From: a virus
IMG/VR virus record: IMGVR_UViG_3300029266_000814
Coordinates: 1 to 27,548 of that record
Length of the DNA stretch: 27,548 nt
Strand: one strand, 5' to 3'
The position numbers and the translations under genes are program-made. Below the pieces are notes generated by a model. The model did not search any database. It had not been told where the DNA came from and worked only from the letters and a program-made list of their open reading frames with translations. How positions within the stretch are numbered: position 1 is the stretch's first letter; the number at the start of each line of letters is the position of its first letter. Shown piece by piece: positions 1 through 27,548 of this stretch.

Positions 1-2
1 AA

Positions 3-815
3 GACCCGAACTTTGGAGAAGCGGGTGCATCTAATGGGCCAGTGGCTACGTCGCAAAATTCCGCGCAAAACACAGCGGCTCAATCACAGCGCGGTGGCTT
101 TGGTGGATTTGCGGACGCCTTTGGTAATATGATTAACAAAGCGGTAAACACTGGACCGCTGTTCGGTCTTTTGGGGCCAAGCGACCCAGTTCCTTCAATG
201 GCGAATAGTTCTGATCGTGACGAGAATGAGGCATTACAACGCCAACTGGCGATGCAGCAAGGCATTACTGTCGGTCAGTCTGGAAACAGTGTCCCAGTAG
301 GTTCTCCCGTTCAAGCGCCTACTGACTTATCAGGTCCAGCAGATACTCCCGCTGATGGCAGTACCGTCACAGATGGTGGGGGTATGCCCAATGAGGACGG
401 CGTTCCGCAAGATACAGATAATGACGGTATCGTGACGGCTATGGAAGCTGAGATAGCAAGTCTACGTTCGGAACTTTCGAGGCTGAGTGGTATACCGATT
501 TCTGAAACTCAGGGGATGACGAGAGATCAAATAGTCGCGCTGATAAATCAATCAATGAAATCGTATGGCGGCGGGGGTTACATGCCTCTCAGTTATCTCA
601 ACGCATTTGGCGCGTCTACTACGCCGAACGTGCAAGCACCAGTTCTGCCTTCGTATGTTTCTAACGACGGAGTGTACGAACGCAGAGCGGTTAAAGACAG
701 AGAGACAGGCGAAACTAGGTACATAAACGTACCGATCAGCAATGCGAGCATGCTGGGTGCTACTGGATTTCAACAAAAACGACGTGCTGGCTTTGGCTCA
801 AATGCGTTTAGTTAA
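3..815 (+). CDS. Partial virion-associated protein with EF-hand-like loop (5' end outside window)
   Basis: The frame is open from base 3 with no stop, so the gene probably starts upstream; a GTG at 42 is the only nearby alternative start. The C-terminal 257 residues are Gly, Ser, Asn and Gln rich, as is common in phage structural proteins. Residues 124-135 counted from that GTG (nt 411-446) read DTDNDGIVTAME, a textbook DxDxDG...E calcium-binding loop, followed by a short coiled coil (EAEIASLRSELSRL). The C-terminus is basic and glycine-rich. The next gene starts 12 bp downstream with an AAGGAG site. Its place directly before ejection-protein-like genes suggests a minor head or internal virion protein. 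I do not recognise a family, and the function is inferred from position only. Confidence 0.75.
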   Translation, partial: DPNFGEAGASNGPVATSQNSAQNTAAQSQRGGFGGFADAFGNMINKAVNTGPLFGLLGPSDPVPSMANSSDRDENEALQRQLAMQQGITVGQSGNSVPVGSPVQAPTDLSGPADTPADGSTVTDGGGMPNEDGVPQDTDNDGIVTAMEAEIASLRSELSRLSGIPISETQGMTRDQIVALINQSMKSYGGGGYMPLSYLNAFGASTTPNVQAPVLPSYVSNDGVYERRAVKDRETGETRYINVPISNASMLGATGFQQKRRAGFGSNAFS

Positions 816-827
816 GGAGCGGCGAAA

Positions 828-2006
828 ATGGCTTTTAGTGACCTACTAAGTTGGGCTACAGAAAACCCTATTGATGCGCTTGAAGGCAGCTTAACGCTAT
901 ACAGCGCGTATCAGGGAAGCAGAAGTTCTGACCAAGCGAACGAAGACGCACGCGCTCTCACCTCGGAAGACGCGGCTCGCAATCGAAAAATCTATGAGTT
1001 GTTTGCGGAAGGTGGCAACAACCTAAAGACCACCACGGACAACTTGCTATCAACGTACGGATCGTTTGGTCAGGTTACTCCCGACACTGTACTCGATAAT
1101 CGGGAATACTTTGCGGGTGAACGGTCGAATGAAGAAGCAGCGAACCGTGTGGAAGTTGACGCTCTAACCCTTGAGGACACGCTACGTCTTAAAGGGTACG
1201 AAGGTGCTTTTCGTGACTACGCCGACACACAGATAGATCGCGCCGAAAACAGAGTATATGGCAGGGACGCGCAGGGTCAGTTAGACGCGCCGAGCGCAAT
1301 GGACTATTCGCAGATACAGGACACGATTGCGAAGCAGTTTATGGGCATGCGTACAGACAATACGCAACGCGCTCTCGACGTGCAGTATTCGAAGGCACTC
1401 GCCAACATACCAGAGGGCTTGGAGAACAGCACGCTTCGCGTTCAGATGGAGCGTAGCATGGCTGATCTCGCTTCGCAGAAATACAACGAAGACATGATGG
1501 CATCCATTGGCGATGCTCAATCCTATCTGTCTGGATTGCAGCAAACCGCAAGCAACCAGCAGAACATGACGAACGCAGAGCGCAACATGCAGCGTTCACT
1601 TCTGTCTGACAGCCTTACGTACGGCACTCAGACACTCGCTAACGCCCAGAACTCCGGCAAGTACGGACAGGGGCTTGCGACGAACATCGACGCGCAGACG
1701 GGTATGAACATAGATGAAGTGAACGCACGTAATTCCATGCGAAACAACACCGCCTTGAGTGATTATCTGACGGGTATTTCCAGCGTGGGGGCCGAAAACA
1801 AATTGGCGAATGATTACCTCAGCCAAGTATCCCAGATTACCACCGCGCCTTATCAGTTCACAGCAACTGGGCAAAACGCGATAAGTAACAATGGTGCAAT
1901 GGATAGTCTTTCTAGGTTGGCAGCTACCGCTGGCGGCATATCGTCAGGTAACATGAAGGCCGCTGGCGGCTGGTGGGATGACTTGCGTAAAAACTATGAA
2001 TTTTAG
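828..2006 (+). CDS. Putative internal virion protein A (T7 gp14 position)
   Basis: This 392-residue protein starts at an ATG with an AAGGAG ribosome-binding site 8 bases upstream. It is largely helical by composition, rich in Ala, Gln, Asn and Ser, with no clear signal peptide or catalytic motif. The N-terminal stretch (PIDALEGSLTLYSAYQGS, about residues 14-31) is the most hydrophobic part and could be the membrane-interacting segment seen in gp14-type proteins. It is followed within 8 bp by a 760-residue protein and then by a giant protein, matching the gp14-gp15-gp16 order of the T7 ejection machine. The assignment rests on synteny, size order and composition; I see no diagnostic motif. It could also be another minor structural protein. 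Confidence 0.6.
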   Translation: MAFSDLLSWATENPIDALEGSLTLYSAYQGSRSSDQANEDARALTSEDAARNRKIYELFAEGGNNLKTTTDNLLSTYGSFGQVTPDTVLDNREYFAGERSNEEAANRVEVDALTLEDTLRLKGYEGAFRDYADTQIDRAENRVYGRDAQGQLDAPSAMDYSQIQDTIAKQFMGMRTDNTQRALDVQYSKALANIPEGLENSTLRVQMERSMADLASQKYNEDMMASIGDAQSYLSGLQQTASNQQNMTNAERNMQRSLLSDSLTYGTQTLANAQNSGKYGQGLATNIDAQTGMNIDEVNARNSMRNNTALSDYLTGISSVGAENKLANDYLSQVSQITTAPYQFTATGQNAISNNGAMDSLSRLAATAGGISSGNMKAAGGWWDDLRKNYEF

Positions 2007-2013
2007 GTGATAT

Positions 2014-4296
2014 ATGGTCTTTAATATGGGCGCCTTCTCCGAAGGCAAAAATGAGAACGATCAAAGACGTAGAGCGCAGCGTAAGGACAACGCCGCGCTT
2101 TACGCTGACTTTGTACGCATGAACCCAGATAGTTCGGTCGGAGACCGCGAAGGCTTCGTCAAGAACCTCACGGGTTCTGACAGCAAGTTCGTACGTGCGA
2201 CCATGCCCACTCGTAGTGTCATGGAAGCGAACGTAGCTAGACGTAAGAGTGAGGTCGGTGCAGCCGCGAAAACCCGTAAGCTACAATTACTGAAGCAACA
2301 GATGTCCTTTATGAACGACGCGGCAAATATGTACTCCAACTCATATCTCGCTAATGGCGATGAAAAAGCCGCCGCTGCGGGGCTTTCAATGTTTGACGAA
2401 ATACTAACGCCCGAAATGCAATCGGCAGCAGCCTCTCAAGGCCAGCAAACAGCAATCGTAAAGTTTGACGAGAAGATGCAGCCGTATTGGGACGCATGGA
2501 AAGAAGGCGGGGCGACAGCGGAGGGCATGAAGAATTGGGGTGACTTAGCCCCGAACGAGGCAATGATCCAGAAATGGAAAAACCGTGCAACTAACCTCAG
2601 AGGACAGCTAGGCCAGCAAGAGTTTATACAGGCTCAAGAGCAAATACAGGCTGTGGGTTCTGCCAATGATGCAGCCCGTTTAGATCAATTCAAGGCCAGC
2701 TTGCCTCAGAAATATAGCCACCTTAATGACCAGCAGATAGCCTCTATTATCTCTGGTGTTGACAGCGCGTTCACGCAAGCTGGGGTGACAGCAAACAACG
2801 CAATCGAAGCCGAGGCGTCAGCTATAATTGCAGGAATAGTCGCAAAGGCGAAGACGAGCGTGAATACAAACGGAGAGGGCGGTACGCAGATCATAGGCTT
2901 GCAGAACAGAGACGCGATACAGGAAGAAATCCAATCGCAGTTCGACCAGAACCCTTTGATAAACCGCGCCCCAACAGATGCAGAAATTGCCAACATAGCT
3001 CAGACCGTTGACGAAATGCAGCAAGGGATTATTGCGCAGCTAGACGGAGCAGAAATAAAGGCAAAAGACCAGATACTACAGCAATCCGAAAGAGAAGACT
3101 TTCGGTACAACCCTCAGTTGTTAGACTCAAATGGACAGATTGATATAGACGAACTAAACAAGCAAGAAAACGCCGCTCTATCGGCATTAGACCGTTTTGT
3201 AGAAAGACAATCAGGCACAGGGCAGACGCAGACAAACGAGGCGGCGGTCGATAGAAAAAAAGTCATGTTCACAGAAAAGTTTGCCGATGCTGTACGCGTT
3301 TATGGAATTAACATAAGCGACCCGAATGTTTATCTAAACATGTTGTCAACTACGGCGAGAAGCCACGCTGCGGATGGTATAATTGAGTTCGATGAATTGC
3401 ACTTCCTTAATGCCGTACATGAGCAGCTAGGCAAAGACATGGTTTCGAACGAAGGCGTCGCCTATAATCTTGCGCTGCAAGAAATGGGCGTGACTTCAGT
3501 AGCGGACTTTATGTCTACCGATCTAAATGGCGACGACGACGCACTGAAGTTTAGGGCGGAGTTCGAGAAGCAGCGAGTGGCTAGAATTACCTCGCTTACA
3601 GACTTGTACGACAAGAGCCGTACCAGCCTCACGGACGTTTCGGAACAGGTCGCGGGAACAATCTCGACCACCAATGCCGACACTCAATTACTTACCGAAA
3701 GCACCACTGTCACTGAGGTCGATACTTTGGTTGCGGGTGGCGTAATACAAAACATTGCGCAGATTGACAGCCTTCAACAGCGTCAGAACCAAATACAAAC
3801 TGTCGTTATCGACAATGCGGTGAAGCTGGACAAGATAGATCAGGACATTCGTTCAGCCGAAGCCTACCTCAAGATACCACAGTTCGCTAATGACCCCGAC
3901 CTTCAACCCGAACGGGCGCAAGTTCTGGCATCAATCGACGAATTAAAGGCAAGTCGTTCTGCGTTAGTGGATCAAATCACCATTCTCGACGGAGCGGCAG
4001 ACAAGTTGGATGTTCCAGTTGCACTAGCCACAACAGACGTAGGTAACAAAACCGTTGAGTTGCGACAGTTCGCCGCCGACGTGATAGCGTATCAAATAAA
4101 TAGCTTTGGCCTTGACCCGTCAAACGTAGAGGCCGCTGCAAGAGAAATGGCGGAAGGTGCGTGGCCCGAAGTCGATACCGTGTTTGTACATTGGGGCGAT
4201 GACGAATTACGCGGCAAGAAGAGAGAAATGGATAGCCGAGATAAGTGGATTGATAAAATCGTGGAAATGGTGACTGCGCCACCCAACGAGAACTAG
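2014..4296 (+). CDS. Putative internal virion protein B (T7 gp15 position)
   Basis: This 760-residue protein starts 8 bp after the previous stop with an AGGTGA site; a second Met at residue 5 is an alternative start. It is Gln and Ala rich with long predicted helices (for example GQLGQQEFIQAQEQIQAV near residue 200). This fits gp15-type proteins, which are helical and form part of the trans-envelope ejection tube. Two segments look like degenerate EF-hand loops: LDSNGQIDIDEL near residues 370-380 and HAADGIIEFDEL near 451-462; both keep the Gly and final Glu but lack the first Asp. One of the two GANTC sites I found in the window (nt 3124) falls in the first of these. Function is inferred from position and composition. 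Confidence 0.6.
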   Translation: MVFNMGAFSEGKNENDQRRRAQRKDNAALYADFVRMNPDSSVGDREGFVKNLTGSDSKFVRATMPTRSVMEANVARRKSEVGAAAKTRKLQLLKQQMSFMNDAANMYSNSYLANGDEKAAAAGLSMFDEILTPEMQSAAASQGQQTAIVKFDEKMQPYWDAWKEGGATAEGMKNWGDLAPNEAMIQKWKNRATNLRGQLGQQEFIQAQEQIQAVGSANDAARLDQFKASLPQKYSHLNDQQIASIISGVDSAFTQAGVTANNAIEAEASAIIAGIVAKAKTSVNTNGEGGTQIIGLQNRDAIQEEIQSQFDQNPLINRAPTDAEIANIAQTVDEMQQGIIAQLDGAEIKAKDQILQQSEREDFRYNPQLLDSNGQIDIDELNKQENAALSALDRFVERQSGTGQTQTNEAAVDRKKVMFTEKFADAVRVYGINISDPNVYLNMLSTTARSHAADGIIEFDELHFLNAVHEQLGKDMVSNEGVAYNLALQEMGVTSVADFMSTDLNGDDDALKFRAEFEKQRVARITSLTDLYDKSRTSLTDVSEQVAGTISTTNADTQLLTESTTVTEVDTLVAGGVIQNIAQIDSLQQRQNQIQTVVIDNAVKLDKIDQDIRSAEAYLKIPQFANDPDLQPERAQVLASIDELKASRSALVDQITILDGAADKLDVPVALATTDVGNKTVELRQFAADVIAYQINSFGLDPSNVEAAAREMAEGAWPEVDTVFVHWGDDELRGKKREMDSRDKWIDKIVEMVTAPPNEN

Positions 4297-4354: not shown

Positions 4355-7300
4355 ATGAGTGCAGCCGATAAGTATCGGGCCAAGTACGGCCTTGAGACAT
4401 CCGAAGGAAACGCAAACGACTACACTGGTCTAAGTGGTCCGGCTCTACTCTCCAACCGAGCGGCTATCCGCGACGTTCGAAATTACTATTCTGCCAAGGG
4501 CAGAACCTTCGCTTCCAACCAAGAAATGTGGGACACGTTTTACGAGGATCGCCGCTGGCGTGACGTGAACAGCGTCTCCATGCTCATCGGAGCGGGTGAA
4601 TACGCTTTGGCTGGCGATGGTAAGAAGATGGAGACCAAGCTATCGAAGTTGTGGGCTAATGCCCCCTCTCGCGGCACGACTTGGGAAAAGGTAAAAGACT
4701 ACGGCGCAGCCGGACTACTCGATCCTGTCAACTTACTCGGCGGATACGGAGCCGCTGCAAAGGGTGCGAAGGCGTACCAGCTTTCTCGCGCAGGGATGGC
4801 GACAAGCCGCGCAGCATTAAAGAAGGCTGGTTGGGCTGGCGCGAGGCAGGGGGCCGTTACCGAAGCCGGAGCAAACGCAATCGTAGGCGGCGGCTTCGAT
4901 GCCGTCCAGCAAGGATTTGAAATACAGCAAGGCGTGTCGGACGAGTTCGACTTAGGCCGTACCGCTCGCTCGGCAGCACTCGACGCGACAGTAGGTACTG
5001 TCTTCGGTGGGGCCGTAGGCATGTACCAAGGTAAGAAGGGCGCGAAGGAAGCGGTGCGCAACGCGATCCCAACCAGCGCAATAGGCTCAAGCGTAGCCGC
5101 ACGATCCGCAAACCTAGACAGTCAGATAAGCGAACTTAATGGAGACTTAGACGCTGCCACTGATGCAGGTGTAAGGGAGCAGCTTCGTGACGAACTGTTT
5201 ACGCTCGAACAGGAACAGCGGAATATTCGGCAGATCGAAGCGCGTGCTACAGATTACGATGCGCAGCTAGATAAAATATCTGAAGAACTTGCGGCCCGTA
5301 CGAAGGAGAACAAGCGAGCAAATACGGACGACCTTCGTTCGCGGTGGGACGAACTGACGGACGAACGTAGCCGGATGTTAGGTTCGGAGTACGAAAACTT
5401 TGACTACGAAGGGTTCGGAATAAAGAAAGAAGACCGAACGACCCCTACGAACAGCAACCCCCCAGGAATGTCAGACACACCTGCGGTAGATAAACCGGAA
5501 GGCGTTCTATCTGACACTGGCGAGCAGAAGACAAAACCTGACGCTACAGGCAGTAAAGTCCCCGCGCAGACGGACGCGGAAAAAGCAGCTACGAAGACAC
5601 CAGAGGAAGACGCGGTAGATGCGGCCCTCGCCAAAGTCGTAGAAGCAGACGAATTAGTAAAAAAACTCAAAGCGGAGCAAGCGGCCAAGACGGCCAAGAC
5701 GGCCAAGACGATCAAGGTGAAAATCAAGGGCGCCAAACCACTAACGCCAGCGCAGGTAACAGAACCGAAAACACCCGCTGTGTCTGACGCGGAAAAAGCT
5801 GTAGCTGACGCACAGAAAACCTTCGATGACGCCCTAGCAAAATCTAACGCGCAACCAACAGAAGCGACACCAAAAAAGATCGTACTTACCGCCGACGAAA
5901 AGGCGTTGCTCGATACCGTTGACGATATAGACCCTGATGATCTTGGCGAAGTCTACTTCAAGGTGGGTCGCGGCAAGAAGGCAGTCACCTATCTTGCGGG
6001 TCAAAACCCTAGCGGTGCTGGCACCCGCGAAGCCTCGGTAGATAAGCTAATAGCGAACAACAAAGAGTTCGTGAGCATGGACGACGTAAAGCGTCTTATG
6101 TCTCAGGGCATCGGTTCCGCTGGCGAAGGTGAGACTAAGTTCGTAGCCAACAGTATGATGACGGCTTTGCGTAAACTCGTAAAAGCACGCAAGGCCGCAA
6201 AGGGCATCAGCACAACGTCTGCCCCCAAAATAGGTAAGGGCAAGGGCGCGGCTGATCTCTCAGCTAAGGATCGGGCCGAGGCCATCCCAGCCGATGAGAT
6301 AAAAACCAAGGGGTATCTTCTCGCGGGGAAGGGCGGAAAAGCCAGCCCAGACAGCGCAGTAGATTTAGCAGCACTAGCCAAGGCCGTAGAAGATGCCGAG
6401 AAAAAACTAGCAGACGCCAAGGGCGACGGTGCAACGCCAACACCGAAAGAGGATGACGCCTTAATTTTTGAAGCCGAACTCGCAGAGGCTATCGCCCAAT
6501 CTGCCGAGGCATCTAAAAAAGCGAATAAACCCAGCGCGGCGAGCATAGCACAACTCGCTCGCGCCGAAGCCTTGTTTGAGCAGCACCGTTTGGCGACAGC
6601 CGGACAGCCGAAGCAAATCAAAAAGATGCGCAAGCGGCTCAAGCAGATCGTTCGGGAAAAGTCTGAAGACGCAGAAGTTATTGCGGTATATCGAGCCATG
6701 CTGGGCCTTGCGGACGATGTGTTTATGGACGCTGCCAACATAGCGGATGGTGTTAAGTACGCAGAACTGCGCCAAGAGTTTTTGGCGAGGAAGAACGCAG
6801 ACGACATCAACATACAAGGCACGCTCGACAACAACACTAACCCTGATGTAGCGGCCACGAAGAAAACTGTAGTCGTTAAAAATTCCAAAGGCGACGCCAC
6901 AGTATCGTACACGGTGGATGCGAAGACGGGCAAGCGCGTTGCTGGCAGTGGGGAAAAAGCTGCGAATATTATCGAAAAAGGTGCGGGTCGCAGCATCGAG
7001 ACGGTATTCGATAAAAAGACAGGCGAACGTATAGTACGCTTTGGTAAGACACAGGCCATTCTACGCCGTGGTTTCTCCACGGGCAGTGACGATGGCAGAA
7101 CAGTAATCAGCATCGCCGACATCCCGAAGGAAGGCATGTTCAATCAGGACAGCGCGGTAGCACGTGCCGACCTAGATATAGACCAAAGCAAGGGACAAGA
7201 CGTGTATCCGTTCGTAGCGACGGGCATGGAGAAGGTTCGTGACCGACGTGAAGGCAGAAAGTTTGGTACGGCTGTAAAGGGCGAGACGCTTTACTATGTG

Positions 7301-14841: not shown

Positions 14842-15666
14842 CTACACTTTCGGAGTTGGTGCGAATTGTTCGTAGTGATTGCACACCACGTTTCCATCGC
14901 ATCCATGTTTACACGTCCAACCACCGTCTTTATTGGCGTACGAGTGCTTGCAGTACCGAACGTCTGGGGTTAGTTCCGGCACGGACCAGCAGCTATCCCG
15001 CTTGAAGCAGCCCTTGCATCGCCAATCTTCGGCTGTTGTAGATATTCGGTCTGCCTGTCCATCAAGCACAGCCTGTATTCGTACGTACATGAGGGACCAT
15101 TCATCTTGATCGAACGGCACGATCTCAGCGTGATATTGAGAGTTATTTTTATTGTACGATACGAACAGGCTGCGCTCGATGTTGAACATCGCCATCATCA
15201 TTACCATCTGCCGATAGTAATGACGGTGTGATGACTTCACCCCATCGTTACGAAACTTGGTAAAGTTCGCCAAGTTCATCGACTTGATCTCAAGGATTGC
15301 CATACCTGACCCATCCTCGAAATCTACCAGACCATCGCTGTGACATACGACATGACCGTTGAGCCACTCGGCTCGGTGCTGTCGCCCAGTAATGTCATCC
15401 TTTTCCCACACTCGTAGGTCGGCACGTTTTTTTAAATCGTGCACAACCCAATCCTCAATACGGTGTCCCGCATGAAAGATACGTTTAAGTTGCGGCTCTG
15501 GCTCTACGTCTGGATAACCGCGCAGTGACAACGCCATCTTGGCGAGGCAATCTGTGCCAGCCATAGACGCGCCTATATAAGCGCGGGGTTCGCCGCGTGT
15601 TTCGGCGGCGAACCCATCGTCTATATCGCTAAGTAACTTCTGTGCGAGGGGGTGAACGGGAAACAT
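14842..15666 (-). CDS. PD-(D/E)XK nuclease, Cas4/RecB-type exonuclease with probable Fe-S cysteines
   Basis: This 274-residue nuclease carries the RecB/Cas4 motif order: H68 and E71 in HAGHRIED, D111 in CHSDGLVD, E126 and K128 in LEIKS, and the Q153 motif in YYRQM. One Cys near the N-terminus (C40) and a C-terminal CKGCFKRDSC set match the 1+3 cysteine arrangement that binds a 4Fe-4S cluster in Cas4 and AddB. Further Cys and His residues follow (YCKHSY, CKHGC, VCNHYE), perhaps a zinc site. Its start overlaps the SSB-like gene's stop as TAATG. Next to Sak4-like and SSB-like genes it most likely resects DNA ends for phage recombination. The motifs are seen; the substrate direction is unknown. 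Confidence 0.85.
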   Translation of the reverse strand: MFPVHPLAQKLLSDIDDGFAAETRGEPRAYIGASMAGTDCLAKMALSLRGYPDVEPEPQLKRIFHAGHRIEDWVVHDLKKRADLRVWEKDDITGRQHRAEWLNGHVVCHSDGLVDFEDGSGMAILEIKSMNLANFTKFRNDGVKSSHRHYYRQMVMMMAMFNIERSLFVSYNKNNSQYHAEIVPFDQDEWSLMYVRIQAVLDGQADRISTTAEDWRCKGCFKRDSCWSVPELTPDVRYCKHSYANKDGGWTCKHGCDGNVVCNHYEQFAPTPKV

Positions 15667-16139
15667 TAGAAGGGGATTTCATCATCCGGCATCGGCGGCA
15701 CTGCGGCGGCCTTCGACTGAGTAACTTCCGTAGGGCCGAAGAACGAACCAACTTTTGTCTGGGTCTTTCCCATATAATTATCTTCGTAGACTTCGATCCC
15801 GATTTCTTTGCCGATGAAGAAGTCAGAAGGTTTGATCGACGTAGCAGACGTAGCCCCCAGCACATGCTGGATACGAAGCACTCGACCGAGGCCACGATTG
15901 AGACGCTTACCTGCGCGATCCTTGTCGTTTTCATCGTTGTAGTTGCCAACGTGTACGGTCAGCCAATCTTTGCACTGAGCCGTGGGTGTCTCCATTGTGA
16001 TAACCATCTGGCGATCAATGCCCTTGGTCTCAATGTCAACGGCGGCAATCTTCACCACGTGGCGACCCGCGCCTATGATAGACTTTTTAACCTCGATACC
16101 TTCAAGGCTGATCTCGGTCAGTCCCTTCCATTCACTCAT
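15666..16139 (-). CDS. SSB-like single-stranded DNA-binding protein
   Basis: This 157-residue protein ends in PPMPDDEIPF, very close to the acidic C-terminal tip of bacterial SSB (DDDIPF in E. coli), which recruits partner proteins. A short disordered Ala/Pro-rich linker precedes the tip. The body has alternating hydrophobic residues consistent with a beta-rich OB-like fold (for example EIGIEVYEDNYMGKTQTKVG near residue 112). The start overlaps the stop of the upstream Sak4-like gene as ATGA, which indicates translational coupling. Sak4-type annealing ATPases are known to be stimulated by a cognate phage SSB, which fits this pairing. The body could alternatively belong to a DUF669-type family, also found in recombination cassettes. 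Confidence 0.75.
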   Translation of the reverse strand: MSEWKGLTEISLEGIEVKKSIIGAGRHVVKIAAVDIETKGIDRQMVITMETPTAQCKDWLTVHVGNYNDENDKDRAGKRLNRGLGRVLRIQHVLGATSATSIKPSDFFIGKEIGIEVYEDNYMGKTQTKVGSFFGPTEVTQSKAAAVPPMPDDEIPF

Positions 16140-16918
16140 TTGGATACTCCCTCTTTCTGAGCGTTCATAAATTCGTTTTCGGTCATGTAGATACGGGCCA
16201 GCAGGTCCGTCACCTTGTCGGTATTCTCTACGGGTTTTAGTCGGCGGTGGGGGTCACGGCTCTTGCCGTGCCAGCCGTGCACGTTGTCCGTAATCAGGTG
16301 GCGCGTAACCTTGAGCCGACCGTCATCCTCTTGCGTCTTGCGGACTAGGCAGAACACATGATCGTACAAGGCGGGTGCCAACTTCTGCACCTTTTTTTGA
16401 ACCAACATCGGCCAGTATTGCGTAGCCCCGTTGTCGTCGGTTTCCTCGGCTGCAAGGCACGTGATAAGTACGTTCGTCTCAAGGTCGCGTATCCACTTGA
16501 GCGCAGCCGTGATCTTACGTTCGTATGCGCCCCATTTTTCAAATCCGTTAGCCGATCCCTCGAACTCTTTTTCCACGTCAGCAAAGCATCGCTGAGATAG
16601 TTCGGTGGCACTGTCGAGCGCGATCCATTTGTAGCCTTTCGCTTTGAACGCATCGCTTGACACGTACTTAACAAGGTCCATGAACGTGTACTTTCCACCT
16701 TTGTTCGGCCTATCGAACGAGGCGAAAGGAAGGTAGTCGATTGGAAGGTGCGATATAGATGACAGTCCGCTCTCACCTGAGAGGACCAGCCCAGCGCCAT
16801 ATGTTTCGTAAAAGTCTGCAATGGCTGTGGTCTTACCGCTGCCTTGATGACCTACGAGCATAACCTTGGCGGCTTGCTTTACGGTGCTGTCGTTTGTTTG
16901 GAACGGTTCTATGTTCAT
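16136..16918 (-). CDS. Sak4-like RecA-fold ATPase (single-strand annealing)
   Basis: This 260-residue ATPase has a Walker A motif GHQGSGKTT at residues 23-31 and a Walker B strand ending at D102 (KWIALDSATELS). The compact RecA-like core without extra helicase domains is typical of phage Sak4/AAA_24 proteins, which are remote RecA relatives that anneal single strands. A region of catalytic and DNA-contact residues near LETNVLITCLAAEETDD follows. It is overlapped by the SSB-like gene downstream and itself overlaps the upstream gene by an ATGA junction. With the downstream exonuclease it forms a complete annealing-type recombination set. The RecA-fold call is firm; the Sak4 subgroup is inferred from size and neighbours. 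Confidence 0.85.
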   Translation of the reverse strand: MNIEPFQTNDSTVKQAAKVMLVGHQGSGKTTAIADFYETYGAGLVLSGESGLSSISHLPIDYLPFASFDRPNKGGKYTFMDLVKYVSSDAFKAKGYKWIALDSATELSQRCFADVEKEFEGSANGFEKWGAYERKITAALKWIRDLETNVLITCLAAEETDDNGATQYWPMLVQKKVQKLAPALYDHVFCLVRKTQEDDGRLKVTRHLITDNVHGWHGKSRDPHRRLKPVENTDKVTDLLARIYMTENEFMNAQKEGVSK

Positions 16919-17449: not shown

Positions 17450-17659
17450 ATGAACTTTGATATATCTAGTTTGATTACCGATTGCGGTGGATCACACCGT
17501 CTAGCTAAAGACCTAAACGTGAGCCGCAATGTTCCCTACGGCTGGTTAAGGCGTAGCTTCATTTCTTCCACTTACTTGTCATCAATCAAAGAGGTTCACC
17601 CGAACCTCGACATCAATTCTTACTTTGTGGAGATAACTAATGGAGACAGGCGCACTTAA
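17450..17659 (+). CDS. Small HTH DNA-binding protein (Cro/YdaS-like)
   Basis: This 69-residue protein contains a helix-turn-helix pattern: GSHRLAKDLNVSRNVPYGWL (residues 15-34) reads as helix, turn and recognition helix. That is typical of Cro/YdaS-type phage regulators. The start is supported by AAGGAG 8 bases upstream; an earlier ATG at 17445 stops after two codons. Its end overlaps the primase gene start by 20 bp, so the two are probably translated together. Sitting between divergent operons, it is a likely regulator of early gene expression and perhaps of its own promoter. I see no dimerisation or cleavage domain, so it is not a CI-type repressor. Confidence 0.75.
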   Translation: MNFDISSLITDCGGSHRLAKDLNVSRNVPYGWLRRSFISSTYLSSIKEVHPNLDINSYFVEITNGDRRT

Positions 17660-19613
17660 CGCAGCACTTGAATACTTAGATCGGGGTTGGGCTTGCATCC
17701 CCGTCAATCCAGAGACAGGCGTATGCCCGTTTGCTTGGGGGTACATCGCAGACAAGCAACAACTACCCAGCGAAGATGATATATATGAATGGTTCGGCGA
17801 ACTGTACCCGAACTACAATGTTGCCATCATCACTGGCCCTGTGTCCAACCTAGTCGTAGTCGATTGCGATAACGCCAACGCCGTAAAGGAAGCGGAGAAG
17901 CTGGGCCTAACCCGAACACCAATAGTGGTGGAGACAAAGAAGGGTTTCCACTTTTACTTCGCCTTCCCCAAGAACGAGGGGTGGATCAAGTCGCATGTTG
18001 GAGCGAACTGTGATGGTCGTGAATGGCCCTCTATCGCTGGGCTAGATTTGCGAGGAAGCAAAGGTATAGCCTACGCACCGCCATCTGTGGGCAAAAGCTG
18101 GAAGCTGATGCAGGGGGCAGACTTTGATGACATCCCTGTGTACGTTCGACCGAAGCTGGCTCAACCCGAACAGAACGTCGTGAACCTCAATGAGTTTCGA
18201 TTAGAGCAGGTGTCCTTGGCTGGCGTAAGACCAGAAGGCTACGGTGTCTGGGAAAGAACTGAGGCAGACGTAAATCGACTAAACCGCAAGATCGACGCTG
18301 GCGATGGTTGCCATGCCCGTCTTGTGTCACTGGTCGGGGAATGTTTCGCCCAAGGTTTAGATGAACAGGCGATACGTACACGTGTGCATGAGTATATGGA
18401 TACGTTCATGCTCAACCCATTTGATGATGAGAAGGTGCTGTCAACTATAGAGGACATCAGCAAGTCGGATCAGCGCAATCATCCTGACCGTGACAATCCT
18501 GTGCCTGTAGCCAAAGAGGACATCGAGCAAGAGAAGGATCGTAGGCCACGTGTCATAACGACGAAGGACATCGAGCGTCTGGAAGACGAACTCGGCACCG
18601 TCGAATACTTCGTAGAGCCGTTCATACCTACGTCCGGCACGATCTTTCAGATCCACGGGTTCTCTGGACACGGTAAGAGTACGTTCGCTCGTCACCTGTT
18701 GTACGCATGTGCCGCTGGCAATGATCGCTTTGGCCCCTTCCAATTCTACAACCGCCCCCGTGTCCTGTACTGCGATTTTGAAAACTCACGCAGCAACGTG
18801 GTAAAATTCCTGACGCAAGCCAAGCACAGCTACGGTGATGCCTCGGAAAACTTCATGCTCTGGTGTCCGTTCGACAATGAAGAAATGATGAACTTAAAGT
18901 CAGCGAAGGGGCTGGCTACGTTTGAGTATCTGGTGAAGTCGCATCGCCCCAACATTGTAATCATTGACACGGTACGTAGTGCGTTCCCGTCGATGGCGGA
19001 GAACTCCGCTGATGATTGGTCGCACATCAACCAGCTATGCCTATCGTTGCGCAATGGTGGCATAACCGTCGGCCTACTGCACCACTCTAACAAGCCGAGT
19101 GATGGTGCTGGATCGGCTGGGCGTGAGGCTGGATCGACCAACCAGCTAACCGTGTTGGAGACGCAGCTAAAGGTAACGCAAGTGTTCGAAGATCAGGCCA
19201 CCGCACAGGTACGAGCGGGGCTGTGGGACGGAGACATCATCAATACACCAATGGCGATGATGGGATCGCCGCAAGCCCTCAAGGCAGGGGAGCGTTTGGA
19301 TATGATGTTCGAAGTTCGTTACGGCAAGGTGCGCGAAATGACTGACGTGCACATGCCATTCTATCACATCGGCATGGGGTCCAACCACGCAGCGGGTACG
19401 GTTCGTCCTATCGCATCGAAGACACCTAAGCAGAGGGCCATGATGTACGCGCAAGAGTGGGAAGATAGTACGGGTGTTATGCGTACAGCCCTGTCTGATT
19501 TTGAAATCAGCCAGCGCATCAATCAGCCAGTGCACATGGTGAAGGAATGGACCGAAGCGTTACGCGCAACTAACCATGCGTCCCGCCTCGCCGAAGCTAA
19601 ATCCAACAGATAA
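17640..19613 (+). CDS. Bifunctional PrimPol primase-polymerase / RepA-like helicase
   Basis: This 657-residue protein fuses two replication activities. The N-terminal 150 residues are a PrimPol domain: D75 and D77 in VVVDCDN, H104 in GFHFYFAF and D136 in GLDLRGSKG fit the metal and nucleotide sites. A linker leads to a RecA-fold helicase of the AAA_25/RepA type, with Walker A GFSGHGKS near residue 340, Walker B NIVIIDT near residue 441, and LLHHSNKP as the sensor-like motif. Together they would prime and unwind phage DNA. It overlaps the HTH gene and ends at a strong hairpin. No DNA polymerase gene is visible in this window; it may lie outside or be supplied by the host. Confidence 0.9.
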   Translation: METGALNAALEYLDRGWACIPVNPETGVCPFAWGYIADKQQLPSEDDIYEWFGELYPNYNVAIITGPVSNLVVVDCDNANAVKEAEKLGLTRTPIVVETKKGFHFYFAFPKNEGWIKSHVGANCDGREWPSIAGLDLRGSKGIAYAPPSVGKSWKLMQGADFDDIPVYVRPKLAQPEQNVVNLNEFRLEQVSLAGVRPEGYGVWERTEADVNRLNRKIDAGDGCHARLVSLVGECFAQGLDEQAIRTRVHEYMDTFMLNPFDDEKVLSTIEDISKSDQRNHPDRDNPVPVAKEDIEQEKDRRPRVITTKDIERLEDELGTVEYFVEPFIPTSGTIFQIHGFSGHGKSTFARHLLYACAAGNDRFGPFQFYNRPRVLYCDFENSRSNVVKFLTQAKHSYGDASENFMLWCPFDNEEMMNLKSAKGLATFEYLVKSHRPNIVIIDTVRSAFPSMAENSADDWSHINQLCLSLRNGGITVGLLHHSNKPSDGAGSAGREAGSTNQLTVLETQLKVTQVFEDQATAQVRAGLWDGDIINTPMAMMGSPQALKAGERLDMMFEVRYGKVREMTDVHMPFYHIGMGSNHAAGTVRPIASKTPKQRAMMYAQEWEDSTGVMRTALSDFEISQRINQPVHMVKEWTEALRATNHASRLAEAKSNR

Positions 19614-19615
19614 AA

Positions 19616-19951: not shown

Positions 19952-20332
19952 ATGGCAAAACGTCTGAGGCTAAACGCGGTGGAGATAATGTGGTTAAAAG
20001 ATAACCACCTAAACTTTACTCATGTAGAATTGGCGGACAGATATGGGGTGTGCGTAGACACCGTTCGTAGGTTATTAATGCGAATGGGATTACAGTATTT
20101 CCCGGGCGCCAAATATCAACATCGCCAACGCCCTGCGAAATGGACGAGGCCGTGCTCAGTATGTGGCAGCAAAAGGCCACGCCCACTCAACCAGTACAGA
20201 TGCACAAGTTGCCACGAACGTGAAGAAGCAATCGACCGCATGGTGGACGACGAAGAACAGGGTGCGAAGGTATCTCTATTCAAACTCCCACCTTTCCTAG
20301 CAGACTTGATGAAGGGGGTATCGTATGCCTAA
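19952..20332 (+). CDS. HTH plus zinc-ribbon DNA-binding protein
   Basis: I choose the ATG at 19952 (126 residues). An earlier ATG at 19898 would add 18 residues overlapping the promoter-like tract and has no good ribosome-binding site. The N-terminal half has a helix-turn-helix pattern (VELADRYGVCVDTVRRLLMR, about residues 25-44). The C-terminal half has a zinc ribbon, CSVCGS...CTSCHE (CxxC with a second CxxC 12 residues later). It ends in a mixed acidic and hydrophobic tail. The stop overlaps the next gene as ATGCCTAA. It is likely a transcription regulator of this operon, or a DNA-targeting partner for the nuclease next to it. Confidence 0.75.
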   Translation: MAKRLRLNAVEIMWLKDNHLNFTHVELADRYGVCVDTVRRLLMRMGLQYFPGAKYQHRQRPAKWTRPCSVCGSKRPRPLNQYRCTSCHEREEAIDRMVDDEEQGAKVSLFKLPPFLADLMKGVSYA

Positions 20333-20702
20333 TCCACAGAAAGCCAAGGGCGACCGCTACGAAGTGGACCTCGCTCACTACTTGAACGACTGCGTGTTTG
20401 GAACCGAGCGTTGCCAACGTGCGCCACTCTCCGGCGGCGGCAAAGTGGGCCTGTACGCAGGTGGCGCAGACATACTCGGCACACCCGAAGTGTTCGTAGA
20501 AGCCAAGCGCACCGAACGTCTGAACGTACGAGACGCCATGCGCCAAGCCGAGCGCAACATCGAGCAGACTAAATCGCCCGAAGCCCCTGTCGTTATTACG
20601 AGAAAAAACCGCGAGCCACTAGAGGACAGCTTAGTCGTCATGCGCCTCAAGGATTGGAAAGAATTTTACAAAAGTAAACTTCGTGAGCGGGGCGACATCT
20701 AG
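20325..20702 (+). CDS. Small PD-(D/E)XK endonuclease (Holliday-junction-resolvase-like)
   Basis: This 125-residue protein shows a compact PD-(D/E)XK core: E13 in GDRYEVDL, D49 in GGADILG, and E59 with K61 in VFVEAKR, then a helix with RQAERNI. This is the pattern of small phage resolvase-like nucleases. The protein is basic overall, as expected for DNA binding. It starts within the upstream HTH/zinc-ribbon gene (8-bp overlap). Likely roles are resolving replication or recombination intermediates or debranching DNA before packaging. The fold call is good; the substrate is inference. Confidence 0.8.
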   Translation: MPNPQKAKGDRYEVDLAHYLNDCVFGTERCQRAPLSGGGKVGLYAGGADILGTPEVFVEAKRTERLNVRDAMRQAERNIEQTKSPEAPVVITRKNREPLEDSLVVMRLKDWKEFYKSKLRERGDI

Positions 20703-21774: not shown

Positions 21775-22157
21775 TGCTGAACATTCATAGGGGCCGCGCC
21801 TCTGAGTTCCTCGCCATCCACATCCTCGAAACACATGACATACGTGCGGTCCACGTAGACATGGACGGCGACGATTTGTGGGTGAAGAACCCGAAGGAGC
21901 AACTGTACAGATGCCAAGTCAAGTCGTGCGCCAAGCCTACCCCCGTATCGTACGACCGCCCCCGCCAGCCGCGTTATCAGTACCAGCTAAAGAACAGCCA
22001 AGAGTACGAGGGCGTCTTCCTGTTAGTAGCCGCTGACATAAAGTTGATTATCGCACGTACGTGGGACGACATAGCTTGCAAAGTGCTTAAACTAAATCCC
22101 AACGTCTTCACCGAGGCCAAGCAAACGTCCTCGATCAAAGGGAATTTTAATTTATGA
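21774..22157 (+). CDS. Second small nuclease-like protein (PD-(D/E)XK variant with Q-x-K)
   Basis: This 127-residue protein resembles a compact resolvase or group-I-intron-endonuclease PD-(D/E)XK fold: E11 in GRASEFLAI, an acidic loop with D31/D33/D34 (HVDMDGDDLWV), then Q48-V-K50 (YRCQVKSC) where E-x-K is usual. The later YEGVFLLVAADIKLIIAR pattern supports a central beta-sheet. The Gln in place of Glu occurs in some active members of the superfamily, so activity is possible. It lies between a TAATG junction and an ATGA junction to the amidase. It could protect or process DNA; it could also be a non-nuclease relative. Confidence 0.6.
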   Translation: MLNIHRGRASEFLAIHILETHDIRAVHVDMDGDDLWVKNPKEQLYRCQVKSCAKPTPVSYDRPRQPRYQYQLKNSQEYEGVFLLVAADIKLIIARTWDDIACKVLKLNPNVFTEAKQTSSIKGNFNL

Positions 22158-22834
22158 CGCGCAAGATCGACGGCATCATCGTACACTGCTCGGCCACCAA
22201 GCCGGATTGGTACGCAAGCAAGACCCCGAACGAACAAATGAAAGAGATCGACCGCTGGCACCGCGAAGAACGAGGCTGGCGTATGATCGGGTATCACGCA
22301 ACCATTTCCCGTGACGGCACAATCGTACAAGGCCGTCCGTACGAAGTGCAGGGTGCTCACGCGAAGGGTTCGAACAAGACCACCATCGGCATTTGTCTCA
22401 TCGGTGGCTTCGGCTCATCGGCGGAAGACCGAGCGGTCGAACATTACACGGCGGCCCAACTGGCTGCCCTGTACGGTTTGATACAAGACCTTCGCTCGCA
22501 GTACGGCATCAAGCAAGACGCAGTGATTGGACACAACAGAGTGAAGGGCGTCGCGAAAGCATGCCCGGGATTTCGTGTTCAGCGATGGCTCGCCGGACAG
22601 CAAATCTCCGAGGCTACGGACGCGAAGCCCGAACGTACGAAGGCGACGCAATCAAAGACAGTCAAAGCATCTGCCGCCACAGTCGCAGCTTCCGCTGGCT
22701 CCGCCGCTACAGCTTTGTCGGGGATGGGTGACATCACGCAGTACATAATACTTGGCTTCACTGGTGTCTCAATTCTTCTAGGCATTTATATTATGCGCGA
22801 GCGCATACGTGCGTGGGCCGAGGGGTGGCATTGA
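22154..22834 (+). CDS. Endolysin: N-acetylmuramoyl-L-alanine amidase (T7 lysozyme type) with C-terminal membrane anchor
   Basis: Residues 1-145 form an Amidase_2 domain that cuts the bond between MurNAc and the stem peptide. Zinc ligands are H11 (IVHCSAT), H127 (GHNRVKG) and C137 (KACPG). Y47 and K135 fit the catalytic Tyr46/Lys128 of T7 lysozyme, including the two-residue Lys-to-Cys spacing. Residues 160-190 are an Ala/Ser/Thr linker. Residues 195-214 are a clear transmembrane helix (TQYIILGFTGVSILLGIYIM) followed by a basic tail. There is no N-terminal signal or SAR sequence. The anchor is unusual for an endolysin and may add holin-like or membrane-tethering function. The gene is coupled by ATGA upstream and touches the Rz-like gene downstream. 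Confidence 0.92.
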   Translation: MTRKIDGIIVHCSATKPDWYASKTPNEQMKEIDRWHREERGWRMIGYHATISRDGTIVQGRPYEVQGAHAKGSNKTTIGICLIGGFGSSAEDRAVEHYTAAQLAALYGLIQDLRSQYGIKQDAVIGHNRVKGVAKACPGFRVQRWLAGQQISEATDAKPERTKATQSKTVKASAATVAASAGSAATALSGMGDITQYIILGFTGVSILLGIYIMRERIRAWAEGWH

Positions 22835-23795: not shown

Positions 23796-23838
23796 TTAAT
23801 CTAATTAAAGTTATTGATTCTTTTCAACAGCTTAATCT
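23796..23838. promoter_or_regulatory. Leader of the LuxR-like gene: dyad, repeated heptamer and an isolated GANTC site
   Basis: A perfect dyad TTAAT-CTA-ATTAA lies at 23796-23808. The heptamer TTAATCT occurs at 23796-23802 and 23832-23838. Between them lies GATTC (23816-23820), one of only two GANTC sites I found in the window and the only one outside a gene. The AGGAG site of the next gene follows at 23844-23848. No well-spaced -35/-10 pair is evident. Confidence 0.5.
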
Positions 23839-23854
23839 TAGTCAGGAGTTTTTT

Positions 23855-24451
23855 ATGCAAACTTTTACACAACCTCTATTGACAAACGGTGTGCGGAAAC
23901 GCAACTTTACTAAACGAGTTGGGGACAAACCAACTGTCTCTAGCCGTGAAGGAAGTCACTTAATGGAGGAACAAATGACTACAGAAAGCATGAGGCTAGA
24001 TCTCCAACGAATGGAGACTAAGCTGGATACTAAGTTAGATATTCTCATTCAACTCGTAAGTCGGCTTGGTAATAATAATGGTGTCGCCACAGCCAACTTG
24101 GATAAAGACGCAGCGTCTGCATCCGAAATTAGTTACCTAAGATCACTAACCTCTCGTCAACACGCCGTGGCCCAAATGCTAACGCAAGGCTTGTTGAATA
24201 GAGACATCGCTCAAGTCATGGGTGTTGGTGAGAATACAGTGAAAGTCCACGTACGAGCGGTGTGTAAGAAGGCAGACGTAAAAGCACGGGGCCAAGCTGC
24301 TATGATATTCCAGAAGATACTAGAGAAAGTAGACGAAGAAGAATACTTGCTACTCGCCAAGGGCCTACCGATTGACTGGTTCGCTTTGTACGATACCGAT
24401 GTCGTGGACCCGTACTTCTACCTATACAAACCATTTAGAGATAAAGGGTGA
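23855..24451 (+). CDS. LuxR/GerE-type HTH regulator with two possible starts
   Basis: This 198-residue protein has a clear GerE helix-turn-helix at residues 98-152: LTSRQHAVAQMLTQGLLNRD, then IAQVMGVGENTVKVH and a third helix. It matches LuxR-family DNA-binding domains, which activate transcription as dimers. There is no autoinducer or receiver domain; residues 43-72 form a coiled coil (MRLDLQRMETKLDTKLDIL) that could dimerise it. The first ATG has AGGAG with a 6-base spacer. A second in-frame ATG at 23975 (residue 41) has GGAGGA 4 bases upstream, so a 158-residue short form is likely too. The C-terminus (residues 155-198) is unknown. Placed before the integrase, it probably controls lysogeny. 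Confidence 0.85.
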   Translation: MQTFTQPLLTNGVRKRNFTKRVGDKPTVSSREGSHLMEEQMTTESMRLDLQRMETKLDTKLDILIQLVSRLGNNNGVATANLDKDAASASEISYLRSLTSRQHAVAQMLTQGLLNRDIAQVMGVGENTVKVHVRAVCKKADVKARGQAAMIFQKILEKVDEEEYLLLAKGLPIDWFALYDTDVVDPYFYLYKPFRDKG

Positions 24452-24454
24452 ACA

Positions 24455-24667
24455 ATGGTACAGACATATAATAACAGCGCGTACGATTGGTCATGGGTAC
24501 TCAGCAATGTGAATTGCATCACCCGTCGCATGATCTCGCTAACTACGATTTCGGACACAAGAATTTCGCAATGGATTTTGGGGAAGGGCAAAGCCTTTAC
24601 CGACCAGATCGTTGCCCCGCCGCCGATGTTCACAATTAGAAATCAACCCTCAACAACGGGAGCCTGA
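24455..24667 (+). CDS. Small ORF between LuxR-like regulator and integrase
   Basis: This 70-residue frame fills exactly the space between the regulator stop (24451) and the integrase start (24669), with GGGTG just upstream as a weak ribosome-binding site. The sequence has Trp and Ser/Thr-rich parts (YDWSWVLSNVN, ISQWILGKGK) but no motif I recognise. Position suggests a possible excisionase or recombination directionality factor, but it lacks the usual basic HTH character. It may also be a non-coding leader. Confidence is limited for that reason. Confidence 0.45.
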   Translation: MVQTYNNSAYDWSWVLSNVNCITRRMISLTTISDTRISQWILGKGKAFTDQIVAPPPMFTIRNQPSTTGA

Positions 24668-24668
24668 C

Positions 24669-25733
24669 ATGACACTATCACTACGCAAACGAGGTAACAT
24701 CTTTCATGCCGAGGGTGAGTTCATGGGCGAACGAATACGTCGCTCACTCAAAACGTCTGATCGTATGCAAGCCAAAGACGCAATGTTAAAGTTGCAGTCT
24801 GACCTGCTCACTGGATCAGCGTCAACGGCTACGAAGGGAACACCTTTCTCCGCTGTCGCAGATAAGTACATGAAGTCCCGACGCACTGGTTCGTCCAAGT
24901 CAGCGATCCGTTATGCCGAGCATCATCGTGAAATGTTTGGCGGCTACGACATCACTGAAATAGATGAAGACTTGATCGAAGGATACATTGAAGATTACCA
25001 CGTGGCGAAGGGCAATTCGGACGGCACAATCAGGCGTGACCTAGTATCGTTGCAAGGCATCTTAAACTTCGGCGCCAAGCTAAAGCTGCGTGATCCGATC
25101 ACGGTTGAGAAGCCATCGGAAAACCCGCACTCAATCGTGACGATCACGCCAGAGGAACAGACATCTATTTTCAATTCTCTCCTTCGCCGCGATCGTATCA
25201 ATCAGGTGCAGTGGGGAGTACATAAAATCTGTACGTTCCTCATATACACAGGCGCACGTCCGAACGAGGTGCTCAAGCTACGCTTCGCCGATCTTGACCT
25301 GACCAACAACACGGTCATTCTTCGTTCGATCAAGGGCCGCAAGGGCCAGCTAAAGGAGAGGCGTGTCCCAATGCACCCCGACCTCGTAGCGTCCCTGCCA
25401 AGGCGACCGAACCACAAGACACCGCAAGCGTCCGATCTGGTCTACGACTATGGGCTGGACACGGCGGAACTACGCAGACGTTTTAAACGCGCTGCCGAAA
25501 AGGTAGGCATAGAGGATAAGACCCCCTACTGCCTACGCCACACTTTTGCGACGCGCTTGTGCCGCCAAGGTGTACCCCCGAAAGTAGTGGCCGACTTATT
25601 AGGCCACTCGTCTTTGGACATGGTGATGAAGTACATGAACACCACGTTTGAGGATCATCAAAGTGCCATAATGGGCATGACTAATCTGGCGTTCGTAACA
25701 CGTACGGCAGACACACAACCAAGAGTTATGTAA
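24669..25733 (+). CDS. int: Tyrosine-recombinase integrase
   Basis: I choose the ATG at 24669 (354 residues, GGGAG upstream); a longer frame begins in the preceding small ORF. The order is an N-terminal arm-binding region (about 1-60), a core-binding SAM-like domain (about 60-155) and a catalytic domain (about 170-345). Catalytic residues are R197 (TGARPNEV), K in SIKGRKGQ, R290 and H291 (CLRHTFATR), H313 (LLGHSS) and the nucleophile Y322 (MKYMN), nine residues after H313 as usual. The first position of the HxxR box is Tyr287 instead of His, a variant seen in some active integrases. A tRNA-Ser fragment 67 bp downstream is the likely attP core. It would insert the phage into the host tRNA-Ser gene. 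Confidence 0.95.
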   Translation: MTLSLRKRGNIFHAEGEFMGERIRRSLKTSDRMQAKDAMLKLQSDLLTGSASTATKGTPFSAVADKYMKSRRTGSSKSAIRYAEHHREMFGGYDITEIDEDLIEGYIEDYHVAKGNSDGTIRRDLVSLQGILNFGAKLKLRDPITVEKPSENPHSIVTITPEEQTSIFNSLLRRDRINQVQWGVHKICTFLIYTGARPNEVLKLRFADLDLTNNTVILRSIKGRKGQLKERRVPMHPDLVASLPRRPNHKTPQASDLVYDYGLDTAELRRRFKRAAEKVGIEDKTPYCLRHTFATRLCRQGVPPKVVADLLGHSSLDMVMKYMNTTFEDHQSAIMGMTNLAFVTRTADTQPRVM

Positions 25734-25766
25734 TTCAAATGGATCAATCAGGGACCGAAAAACCGC

Positions 25767-25794: not shown

Positions 25795-25800
25795 ACCCTT

Positions 25801-25842
25801 GGAGACGTGGCCGAGTGGTCGAAGGCGCTCCCCTGCTAAGGG
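25801..25842 (+). other. attP: attP core: 5' half of a tRNA-Ser(GCU) gene
   Basis: The first 42 bases of a tRNA-Ser are present: acceptor arm GGAGACG, TG, D-stem GCC/GGC with loop, anticodon stem CTCCC, loop CTGCTAA with anticodon GCT (25835-25837), then GGG. It diverges at 25843, where the second half of the anticodon stem should continue GAG, so no complete tRNA is encoded. It lies 67 bp after the integrase gene. Recombination inside it would rejoin this 5' half to the host 3' half. A comparable 42-bp tRNA match next to an integrase is known in marine podovirus P-SSP7 (tRNA-Leu). Confidence 0.85.
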
Positions 25843-25961
25843 CAGTAAATCCCTGATTATCCAAACGAAAGACATGACAATTAACACAACGGGTAACAAC
25901 CGTTGGGCAACTCGGCATGACCGTTCGAAGCGGGATTGTCACACATCGGAGTGTTTTAAAG

Positions 25962-26693: not shown

Positions 26694-26908
26694 AGCGTAA
26701 GCAGCTTATCACCAAGCATGATCTGAAAGATTGCGGCCTCACAAGGGGCCGCGTCTACGACGATATTTCCGACGAGACAATGGACTGGATAGCCCGTGAG
26801 GCATCGAAGTCAGAAGGAAAAAAATGTGGGCCTGTGATAGCGAAAATTTTAAACGCTACGTACGCCTCACTTCAAGCCCATAAGTTCGGCGGTGCGGACG
26901 ATACGTGA
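26690..26908 (+). CDS. Small basic protein coupled to the preceding gene
   Basis: This 72-residue protein starts at an ATG overlapping the previous stop (ATGA); the longer frame from 26651 lies inside the upstream gene. It is basic at the N-terminus (MKRKQLITKHDLKD) with a helical body and an acidic tail. The pattern LITKHDLKDCGLTRGRVYDD could be an HTH, but this is weak. Its last 42 bp overlap the convergent minus-strand gene. Function unknown. Confidence 0.65.
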   Translation: MKRKQLITKHDLKDCGLTRGRVYDDISDETMDWIAREASKSEGKKCGPVIAKILNATYASLQAHKFGGADDT

Positions 26909-27148
26909 GGTAGGCGTTGTCGCCCCTTCGTACTTCGAACGGACGCGCTGCAATAGCGCGTCCTTCCACGTTTCATTCTGCAACGACAGGTACAGGCCAA
27001 GCATAAGCATGTCCTGCTCGGTCATGTCACTCGACAATCCCAACCGTACATAACCGTCCTTGTCCATGCTCATGGCAGGACACTTCGTCGTCACGTACAG
27101 CCGCTTGCGTACGTGCTCAAGCAACGCACCATCATCCTCACTCGTCAT
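26867..27148 (-). CDS. Small acidic unknown protein, last gene of the right minus-strand cluster
   Basis: This 93-residue protein has a helical N-terminal half, a short DKDGYVRLGL strand pair and a helical C-terminus (SLQNETWKDALLQRVRS). No motif is recognised. Its start lies inside the upstream gene's end (11-bp overlap) and its end overlaps a plus-strand gene by 42 bp, which shows dense packing. Base and codon character match the neighbouring genes. Confidence 0.7.
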   Translation of the reverse strand: MTSEDDGALLEHVRKRLYVTTKCPAMSMDKDGYVRLGLSSDMTEQDMLMLGLYLSLQNETWKDALLQRVRSKYEGATTPTSRIVRTAELMGLK

Positions 27149-27371
27149 CCTTCAACCCCTCACGAACTTCGGTCCACTCGGAAAAGGTTCCCAGCTTTCG
27201 ATACTCGTTATCGCCCAGCGCCGTGTGTAACTGTTGCCACACGGCATGACGCTTGCTGCCCTTAACACCGCGACTTGCCAAGTATTGCGCGGCTTCTTTC
27301 GTGAGGCGGTTACATTCTTCATGTGTCTTAACGCGCTCCTTCTCGTACATTTCGAATACATCATCACTCAT
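27138..27371 (-). CDS. Small helical unknown protein
   Basis: I choose the ATG at 27371 (77 residues, GAGG seven bases upstream); the frame extends upstream to 27425, but that part overlaps the next small gene. It is highly charged and helical (KERVKTHEECNRLTKEAAQY) with an acidic C-terminus (EWTEVREGLKDDE). It is overlapped on both sides by genes of the same strand, so it is probably part of a translationally coupled early operon. Function unknown. Confidence 0.7.
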   Translation of the reverse strand: MSDDVFEMYEKERVKTHEECNRLTKEAAQYLASRGVKGSKRHAVWQQLHTALGDNEYRKLGTFSEWTEVREGLKDDE

Positions 27372-27513
27372 CTTCGAACCTCGCCATTCGTACCATCGCC
27401 GCAAACTTAATCGGGCAGGTCTCACCGTTCGCCAAACTTGTAAGCGTCTTGATGAACGTGAACCCGTTCTCGTGCATCCACTTCTCCATCATTTTCTCCG
27501 TAATGGGTTTCAT
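27364..27513 (-). CDS. 49-residue unknown protein
   Basis: A 49-codon frame starts at an ATG at 27513, with AAGGAG 10 bases upstream. It ends in TGA overlapping the start of the downstream gene (ATGAGTGA). The peptide begins MKPITEKMMEKWMHENGFTF and ends VRMARFEDE. The mixed hydrophobic and charged composition, strong ribosome-binding site and overlaps on both sides support a real gene. No family is recognised. Confidence 0.65.
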   Translation of the reverse strand: MKPITEKMMEKWMHENGFTFIKTLTSLANGETCPIKFAAMVRMARFEDE

Positions 27514-27548
27514 TTCGCCAATCTCCTTACGTTCTTGCGCACGATCTC
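27510..27548 (-). CDS. Partial gene at right edge (C-terminal 12 residues)
   Basis: A minus-strand frame open to the window edge ends EIVRKNVRRLAK, and its TGA overlaps the next ATG as ATGA, the same coupling seen elsewhere in this genome. Too little is visible to assign a function. Confidence 0.4.
   Translation of the reverse strand, partial: EIVRKNVRRLAK

Follow-up and report, generated by a model that had tools for sequence, protein, structure and literature searches.

In this work we have analysed the short DNA words of an uncultivated virus contig of 27,548 bp (IMG/VR record IMGVR_UViG_3300029266_000814; hereafter the window, which is the entire virus record), and our results show that GANTC and many other Type II recognition sites have been almost completely removed from it. 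The elimination goes beyond codon and compositional expectation and extends across the whole clade of this phage, and other clades lose other Type II sites. We propose, with a probability of roughly 0.8, that the pattern was generated by long-term selection exerted by the hosts' Type II restriction enzymes on a temperate, roseophage-related marine phage lineage. Restriction cleavage would be the selecting agent, the hosts would be Roseobacter-like alphaproteobacteria, and some of these would have carried, or may still carry, a GANTC-cutting enzyme. Over a long time, cleavage of the phage DNA would favour synonymous and non-coding changes that remove the cut sites, with GANTC (HinfI-type) lost most completely, followed by CCWGG (EcoRII-type), most 6-bp palindromes (CGATCG of PvuI type, GAATTC of EcoRI type and others) and, in part, CCGG.

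A direct count gave two GANTC sites in the window, GACTC at 3124 and GATTC at 23816, the same two that an initial annotation of the sequence had listed. The expectation is 61.8 under a maximal-order Markov model (Poisson P(<=2|61.8) = 3e-24) and 106.0 from base composition, close to the 108 or so estimated in that annotation, and the observed/expected ratio (O/E; paired counts below are observed/expected) is lower than that of any other of the 256 ABNCD words. The 23.8 kb of coding sequence hold a single site, compared with 59.4±6.1 (minimum 43, z -9.5) in 200 synonymous-codon shuffles that preserve the proteins and their codon usage. All four GANTC variants are depleted, while GANTA and GANTT are at normal levels and GATC is as frequent as expected (141/145), in agreement with the early remark that GATC and near misses were common. 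It is therefore scarcely credible that composition, codon usage or mutation, with no selection against GANTC, produced this deficit. The Markov and synonymous-shuffle nulls fail by more than 9 standard deviations or at P <1e-23, the codon-preserving shuffles refute such an artefact, and the outgroup locus L040, a related phage of the same base composition, is not depleted (42/47). What it can claim is only a mild depletion of the 4-mers GACT and GAAT, which exists because the 5-mers are missing.

The depletion had also been described as specific to GANTC, and this part of the annotation has to be abandoned. In the window, CCWGG (1/31; 1 vs 31.6, z -6.1), CCGG (24/77; 22 vs 67.7, z -6.7), GAGCT (1/13; 1 vs 20) and CGCG (110/161) are also low, and among 6-bp palindromes with an expectation of 4 or more, 22 of 44 are absent, versus 3 of 1653 non-palindromes. 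When the window was pooled with its three closest relatives (60 kb), an O/E below 0.1 was found in 59% of 56 testable palindromes versus 0.4% of 1916 non-palindromes, with median O/E values of 0.0 and 1.0, respectively (P=3e-26). Under composition-corrected thresholds of O/E <0.8 for under-representation and <0.1 for elimination, GANTC (2/62), CCWGG and the missing palindromes behave as avoided Type II sites, and control words matched in length and composition, the non-palindromic 6-mers together with GANTA and GANTT, are undepleted. Some palindromes are untouched (TTCGAA 41/37, CACGTG 28/26 and CGTACG 67/72, with GTGCAC also at expectation in the window and L002-L004), so avoidance concerns a subset of palindromes rather than palindromes in general, and the retained ones may point to restriction specificities that this lineage has never encountered. 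The missing words include CGATCG (1/41) and GAATTC (0/13); GTAC is missing from a 37-kb stretch of Loktanella phage pCB2051-A (0/39) and nearly so from roseophage CRP-811 (4/55). These absences match known Rhodobacterales enzymes: RshI (a PvuI isoschizomer), RsrI (an EcoRI isoschizomer) and RsaI all come from Rhodobacter (PMC6256690).

Relatives were gathered by scanning viral contigs with alignments of the bifunctional primase-polymerase (primpol) and of the ATPase, which gave about 110 loci (cited by L number), and were placed in a tree of primpol sequences. There, the clade of the window (37 rows, identity down to about 43%) is uniformly GANTC-free, with 9 sites against 465 expected in 13 dereplicated representatives. 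The sister half of the family is mixed: some subclades (L044-L060, L068) have eliminated GANTC and others have not. One subclade (L062, L066, L069, L075, L078-L080 and L082) has instead lost GATC (0/401) together with CGCG (0/117), CCGG (0/74) and GGWCC (0/92), and another (L065, L067, L071, L074 and L077) has lost GATC (1/261), CGCG, CCGG and CGNCG (0/104), the last of which is, to our knowledge, not a common restriction site. Roseobacter phage CRP-810, also of this family, has eliminated GCWGC (1/119), CCWGG (0/100) and GGWCC (0/57), and its GANTC is only mildly low (105/174). The eliminated word therefore switches between lineages, and most of these words are Type II recognition sites; such a shifting repertoire between sister clades is what restriction avoidance predicts. 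The unrelated roseophages CRP-406, CRP-811 and CRP-361 are also without GANTC. A strict exclusivity between GANTC and GATC elimination seemed to hold inside the primpol family but fails for HTVC019P (L128, 1-20000), which lacks GANTC (0/39), GATC, GCGC, GGCC, CCWGG and CGCG together. As a separate observation, HTVC010P (L122) is devoid of CTNAG (0/62) and has normal GANTC.

A methylase protecting GANTC was considered among the relatives. In the 50 that were searched, PF01555 was confined to the GATC-free subclade L065/L067/L071/L077, as an enzyme with an SPPY motif, which we take to be of the N4-methylcytosine (m4C) type. This enzyme was rejected as a CcrM-like protector given its motif and the loss of GATC, rather than GANTC, in its clade. 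The Dam family (PF05869) was absent from the same 50 relatives.

The initial annotation had offered two causes, escape from GANTC-directed restriction and avoidance of interference with the CcrM/GcrA control of the host cell cycle; the former fits the wider data, and the latter does not agree with the phages of CcrM-bearing hosts. In the interference model, GANTC sites on many phage copies would be methylated, would titrate GcrA or CcrM, or would create unwanted methylation-dependent promoters, and every phage that infects a CcrM-bearing host should have lost GANTC. In the restriction model, phages with their own GANTC methylase can keep the site. GANTC counts are normal in phiCbK of Caulobacter (37/43), DSS3P8 (84/75), EE36phi1 (137/136), HTVC010P (59/62) and HTVC023P (58/48), all phages of CcrM-bearing alphaproteobacteria, the larger genomes among the first four being represented by partial stretches that leave room for a methylase elsewhere. 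None of six phages that carry a GANTC methylase or a homologue of it, the class for which the annotation had asked whether depletion is lacking, has eliminated GANTC. Three of them keep it at an O/E of 0.8-1.2 (vB_OspM_OC, 62/76; DSS3-P1, 120/103; pCB2051-A, 156/164) and three are low (phiLM21, 15/53; RHph_Y25, 33/72; CRP-901, 24/58); the methylases of vB_OspM_OC (PMC7139368) and phiLM21 (PMC5537653) have been assayed. In pCB2051-A GANTC is normal yet CCWGG stands at 2/118 over the whole record, which makes this phage a useful internal control. Both comparisons favour restriction, without proving it, and interference as a general cause was rejected on the five phages listed above. As the cause in the window itself we regard interference as very unlikely. 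It can draw on GANTC being the most strongly eliminated word, on the two-fold or stronger restraint of GANTC in host genomes, chiefly within coding sequence (PMC3973325), on the low GANTC content of gene transfer agent clusters (PMC9836097), and on the distribution among phage groups described below. It nevertheless leaves unexplained why this genome has also lost CCWGG, CCGG and half of its 6-bp palindromes. Moreover, the site is not eliminated by phages that bring their own GANTC methylation, and sites have disappeared inside genes too, not near promoters alone.

We also surveyed dereplicated clusters of several phage groups, with elimination defined as an O/E of 0.1 or less at an expectation of at least 10, and with the hosts of metagenomic loci inferred from isolate relatives only. 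GANTC is eliminated in 16 of 33 clusters of the primpol family and 11 of 20 of the CRP-406-like phages (27/53 for the two roseophage-like groups), in 3 of 29 roseo/pelagi Autographiviridae-like clusters and in none of 16 cyanophage clusters (median 1.02); the cyanophages replaced a Vibrio-phage control scan, which found no relatives. For CCWGG the corresponding figures are 11/27, 7/15, 13/25 and 4/12. These frequencies are no census, because one or two seed genes served to collect each set. A variant of the restriction proposal, which we hold as a tentative possibility, is that many kinds of earlier host, some of them outside the alphaproteobacteria and equipped with HinfI-type systems, exerted the selection on these sites; GANTC would then be just one avoided site among many and unconnected with CcrM. 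The wide repertoire of avoided sites and the elimination of CCWGG in the Autographiviridae and cyanophage sets are consistent with it, but GANTC elimination is concentrated in the roseophage-like groups, and its frequency there against its absence from cyanophages points to a connection with the host group. A further reading, which we consider unlikely, would be that alphaproteobacteria harbour GANTC-cutting endonucleases peculiar to them that have no methylase of their own and are tolerated since CcrM already protects the chromosome. If this were true, CcrM would act as the silent partner in an immune system, and the difference between roseophage-like groups and cyanophages would be explained.

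Several observations weigh against selection by Type II restriction as proposed here. No GANTC-cutting enzyme was found, although no direct search for one was made, and a profile search of genome contigs with the primpol alignment returned no relative and identified no host. SAR11 genomes whose pelagiphages lose GANTC have no identifiable restriction system (PMC9516812), and integrase-bearing phages usually show less complete site elimination (PMC6286503). Half of the methylase-bearing phages still have a GANTC O/E of 0.28-0.46. Finally, CRP-811, whose host FZCC0198 is here called CHUG, is without GANTC, and CRP-810, with a CHUG host, keeps 60% of the expectation; GANTC is therefore not lethal in every CHUG-type host.

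The genes of the window (Table 1) place it near the roseophages, in agreement with the alphaproteobacterial link drawn at first. Judged by its replication genes, its closest named phage is CRP-810 (OR671924), with primpol identity of 37-39% and ATPase identity of 51%, and homologues of the primpol, AAA ATPase, exonuclease, nuclease, LuxR and integrase genes form a replication and integration set shared with CRP-810-like roseophages. CRP-810 differs from the window in its eliminated words, as described above, and in carrying CobS/CobT and an oxygenase not seen here. With its best protein relatives being CRP-810, CRP-406 and CRP-811 and a G+C content of 51%, the window falls outside the SAR11 pelagiphages. 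The tyrosine integrase gene probably marks the phage as temperate, and the recurrence of the LuxR-integrase neighbourhood in relatives indicates that the clade is probably temperate too. The tRNA and Rfam scans of the window gave no clue to an attachment site. No DNA methylase was matched by Pfam among the window genes checked, as the annotation had noted; the contig is a fragment, and the full genome could therefore still carry one.

Table 1. Features of the window, with two methylase genes of related or compared phages
Feature	Position	Strand	Remarks
Whole window	1..27548	.	Linear uncultivated virus contig (IMG/VR), 51% G+C; GANTC, CCWGG, CCGG and most 6-bp palindromes depleted or absent
GANTC site 1 (GACTC)	3124..3128	.	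Within open reading frame (ORF) 2014-4296, which has no homologue in fetched relatives
3306-aa ORF	4355-14275		More than 1/3 of contig; no Pfam match; relatives of the clade have related long ORFs (35-37% identity); probably a virion or internal protein
DUF6378 protein	14276-14572	-	In Roseobacter phage CRP-901 (L379 2621-2881), this domain adjoins a DNA methylase gene
Cas4/YqaJ-domain exonuclease	14842..15666	-	phrog_1990
AAA_24 / Sak4-like annealing ATPase	16136..16918	-	51% identical to CRP-810 gp26
Primpol	17640..19613	+	Prim-Pol PF09250 + AAA_25 PF13481; used for tree of relatives
Phage PD-(D/E)XK nuclease	20325..20702	+	PF24608 just under cut-off; CRP-810 counterpart annotated Holliday junction resolvase
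N-acetylmuramoyl-L-alanine amidase endolysin	22154..22834	+	PF01510; nearest isolates CRP-406, CRP-811 at 41-44%
GANTC site 2 (GATTC)	23816..23820	.	Intergenic, 39 bp upstream of LuxR-type gene
LuxR/GerE-type regulator	23855..24451	+	LuxR-integrase neighbourhood common to clade relatives and CRP-810
Tyrosine integrase	24612..25733	+	PF00589
PF01555 methylase, SPPYWGLRDY motif	L119 1450-2538	-	Subclade L065/L067/L071/L077
GANTC-methylase homologue, phage pCB2051-A	L376 20893-21669

The second GANTC site occurs at the same place in L003, a relative with 97% primpol identity, as the sole GANTC of that locus (L003 10201). This conservation is only suggestive, because the two genomes are close and the other clade members have no GANTC at the equivalent position, but the site upstream of the LuxR-type gene could possibly be a retained control element, of CcrM/GcrA or LuxR type, in an otherwise GANTC-free phage.

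Depletion of GANTC has already been published for pelagiphages, about half of 33 being affected along phylogenetic lines, with past or strain-specific restriction raised as the cause (Seong et al. 2022, PMC9516812). Like the window, those are marine alphaproteobacterial phages with near-total loss of GANTC that tracks phage phylogeny and with undepleted relatives. They infect SAR11 and are mostly Autographivirinae, whereas the window belongs to a different, integrase-bearing and roseophage-related family in which the loss covers many other Type II sites; what is new here is a probably temperate, roseophage-related clade of the same kind. Avoidance of orthodox Type II sites by phages is well established, and near-elimination is rarer in temperate ones (Rusinov et al. 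2018, PMC6286503). As in that study, exact palindromic Type II sites are eliminated (O/E <0.1) across a double-stranded DNA phage genome, but here it is an integrase-bearing clade that has nearly eliminated GANTC, CCWGG and many six-cutter sites. The most suitable reading of the window is a pronounced but otherwise ordinary example of a virus that sheds the words cut by bacterial restriction enzymes.

This case shows how completely an integrase-bearing phage lineage can strip its genome of restriction sites. Because the set that is stripped differs between related lineages, counting sites in uncultivated viruses can provide a fossil record of the restriction systems of their hosts. Phages with a CcrM-like methylase (vB_OspM_OC, DSS3-P1, pCB2051-A and phiLM21) deal with GANTC-directed restriction or methylation differently: they methylate and keep the site, in contrast to the window, which has removed it. 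The question of whether bacteria with CcrM possess immunity directed at GANTC can be addressed directly by comparing phages that remove the site with those that methylate it.

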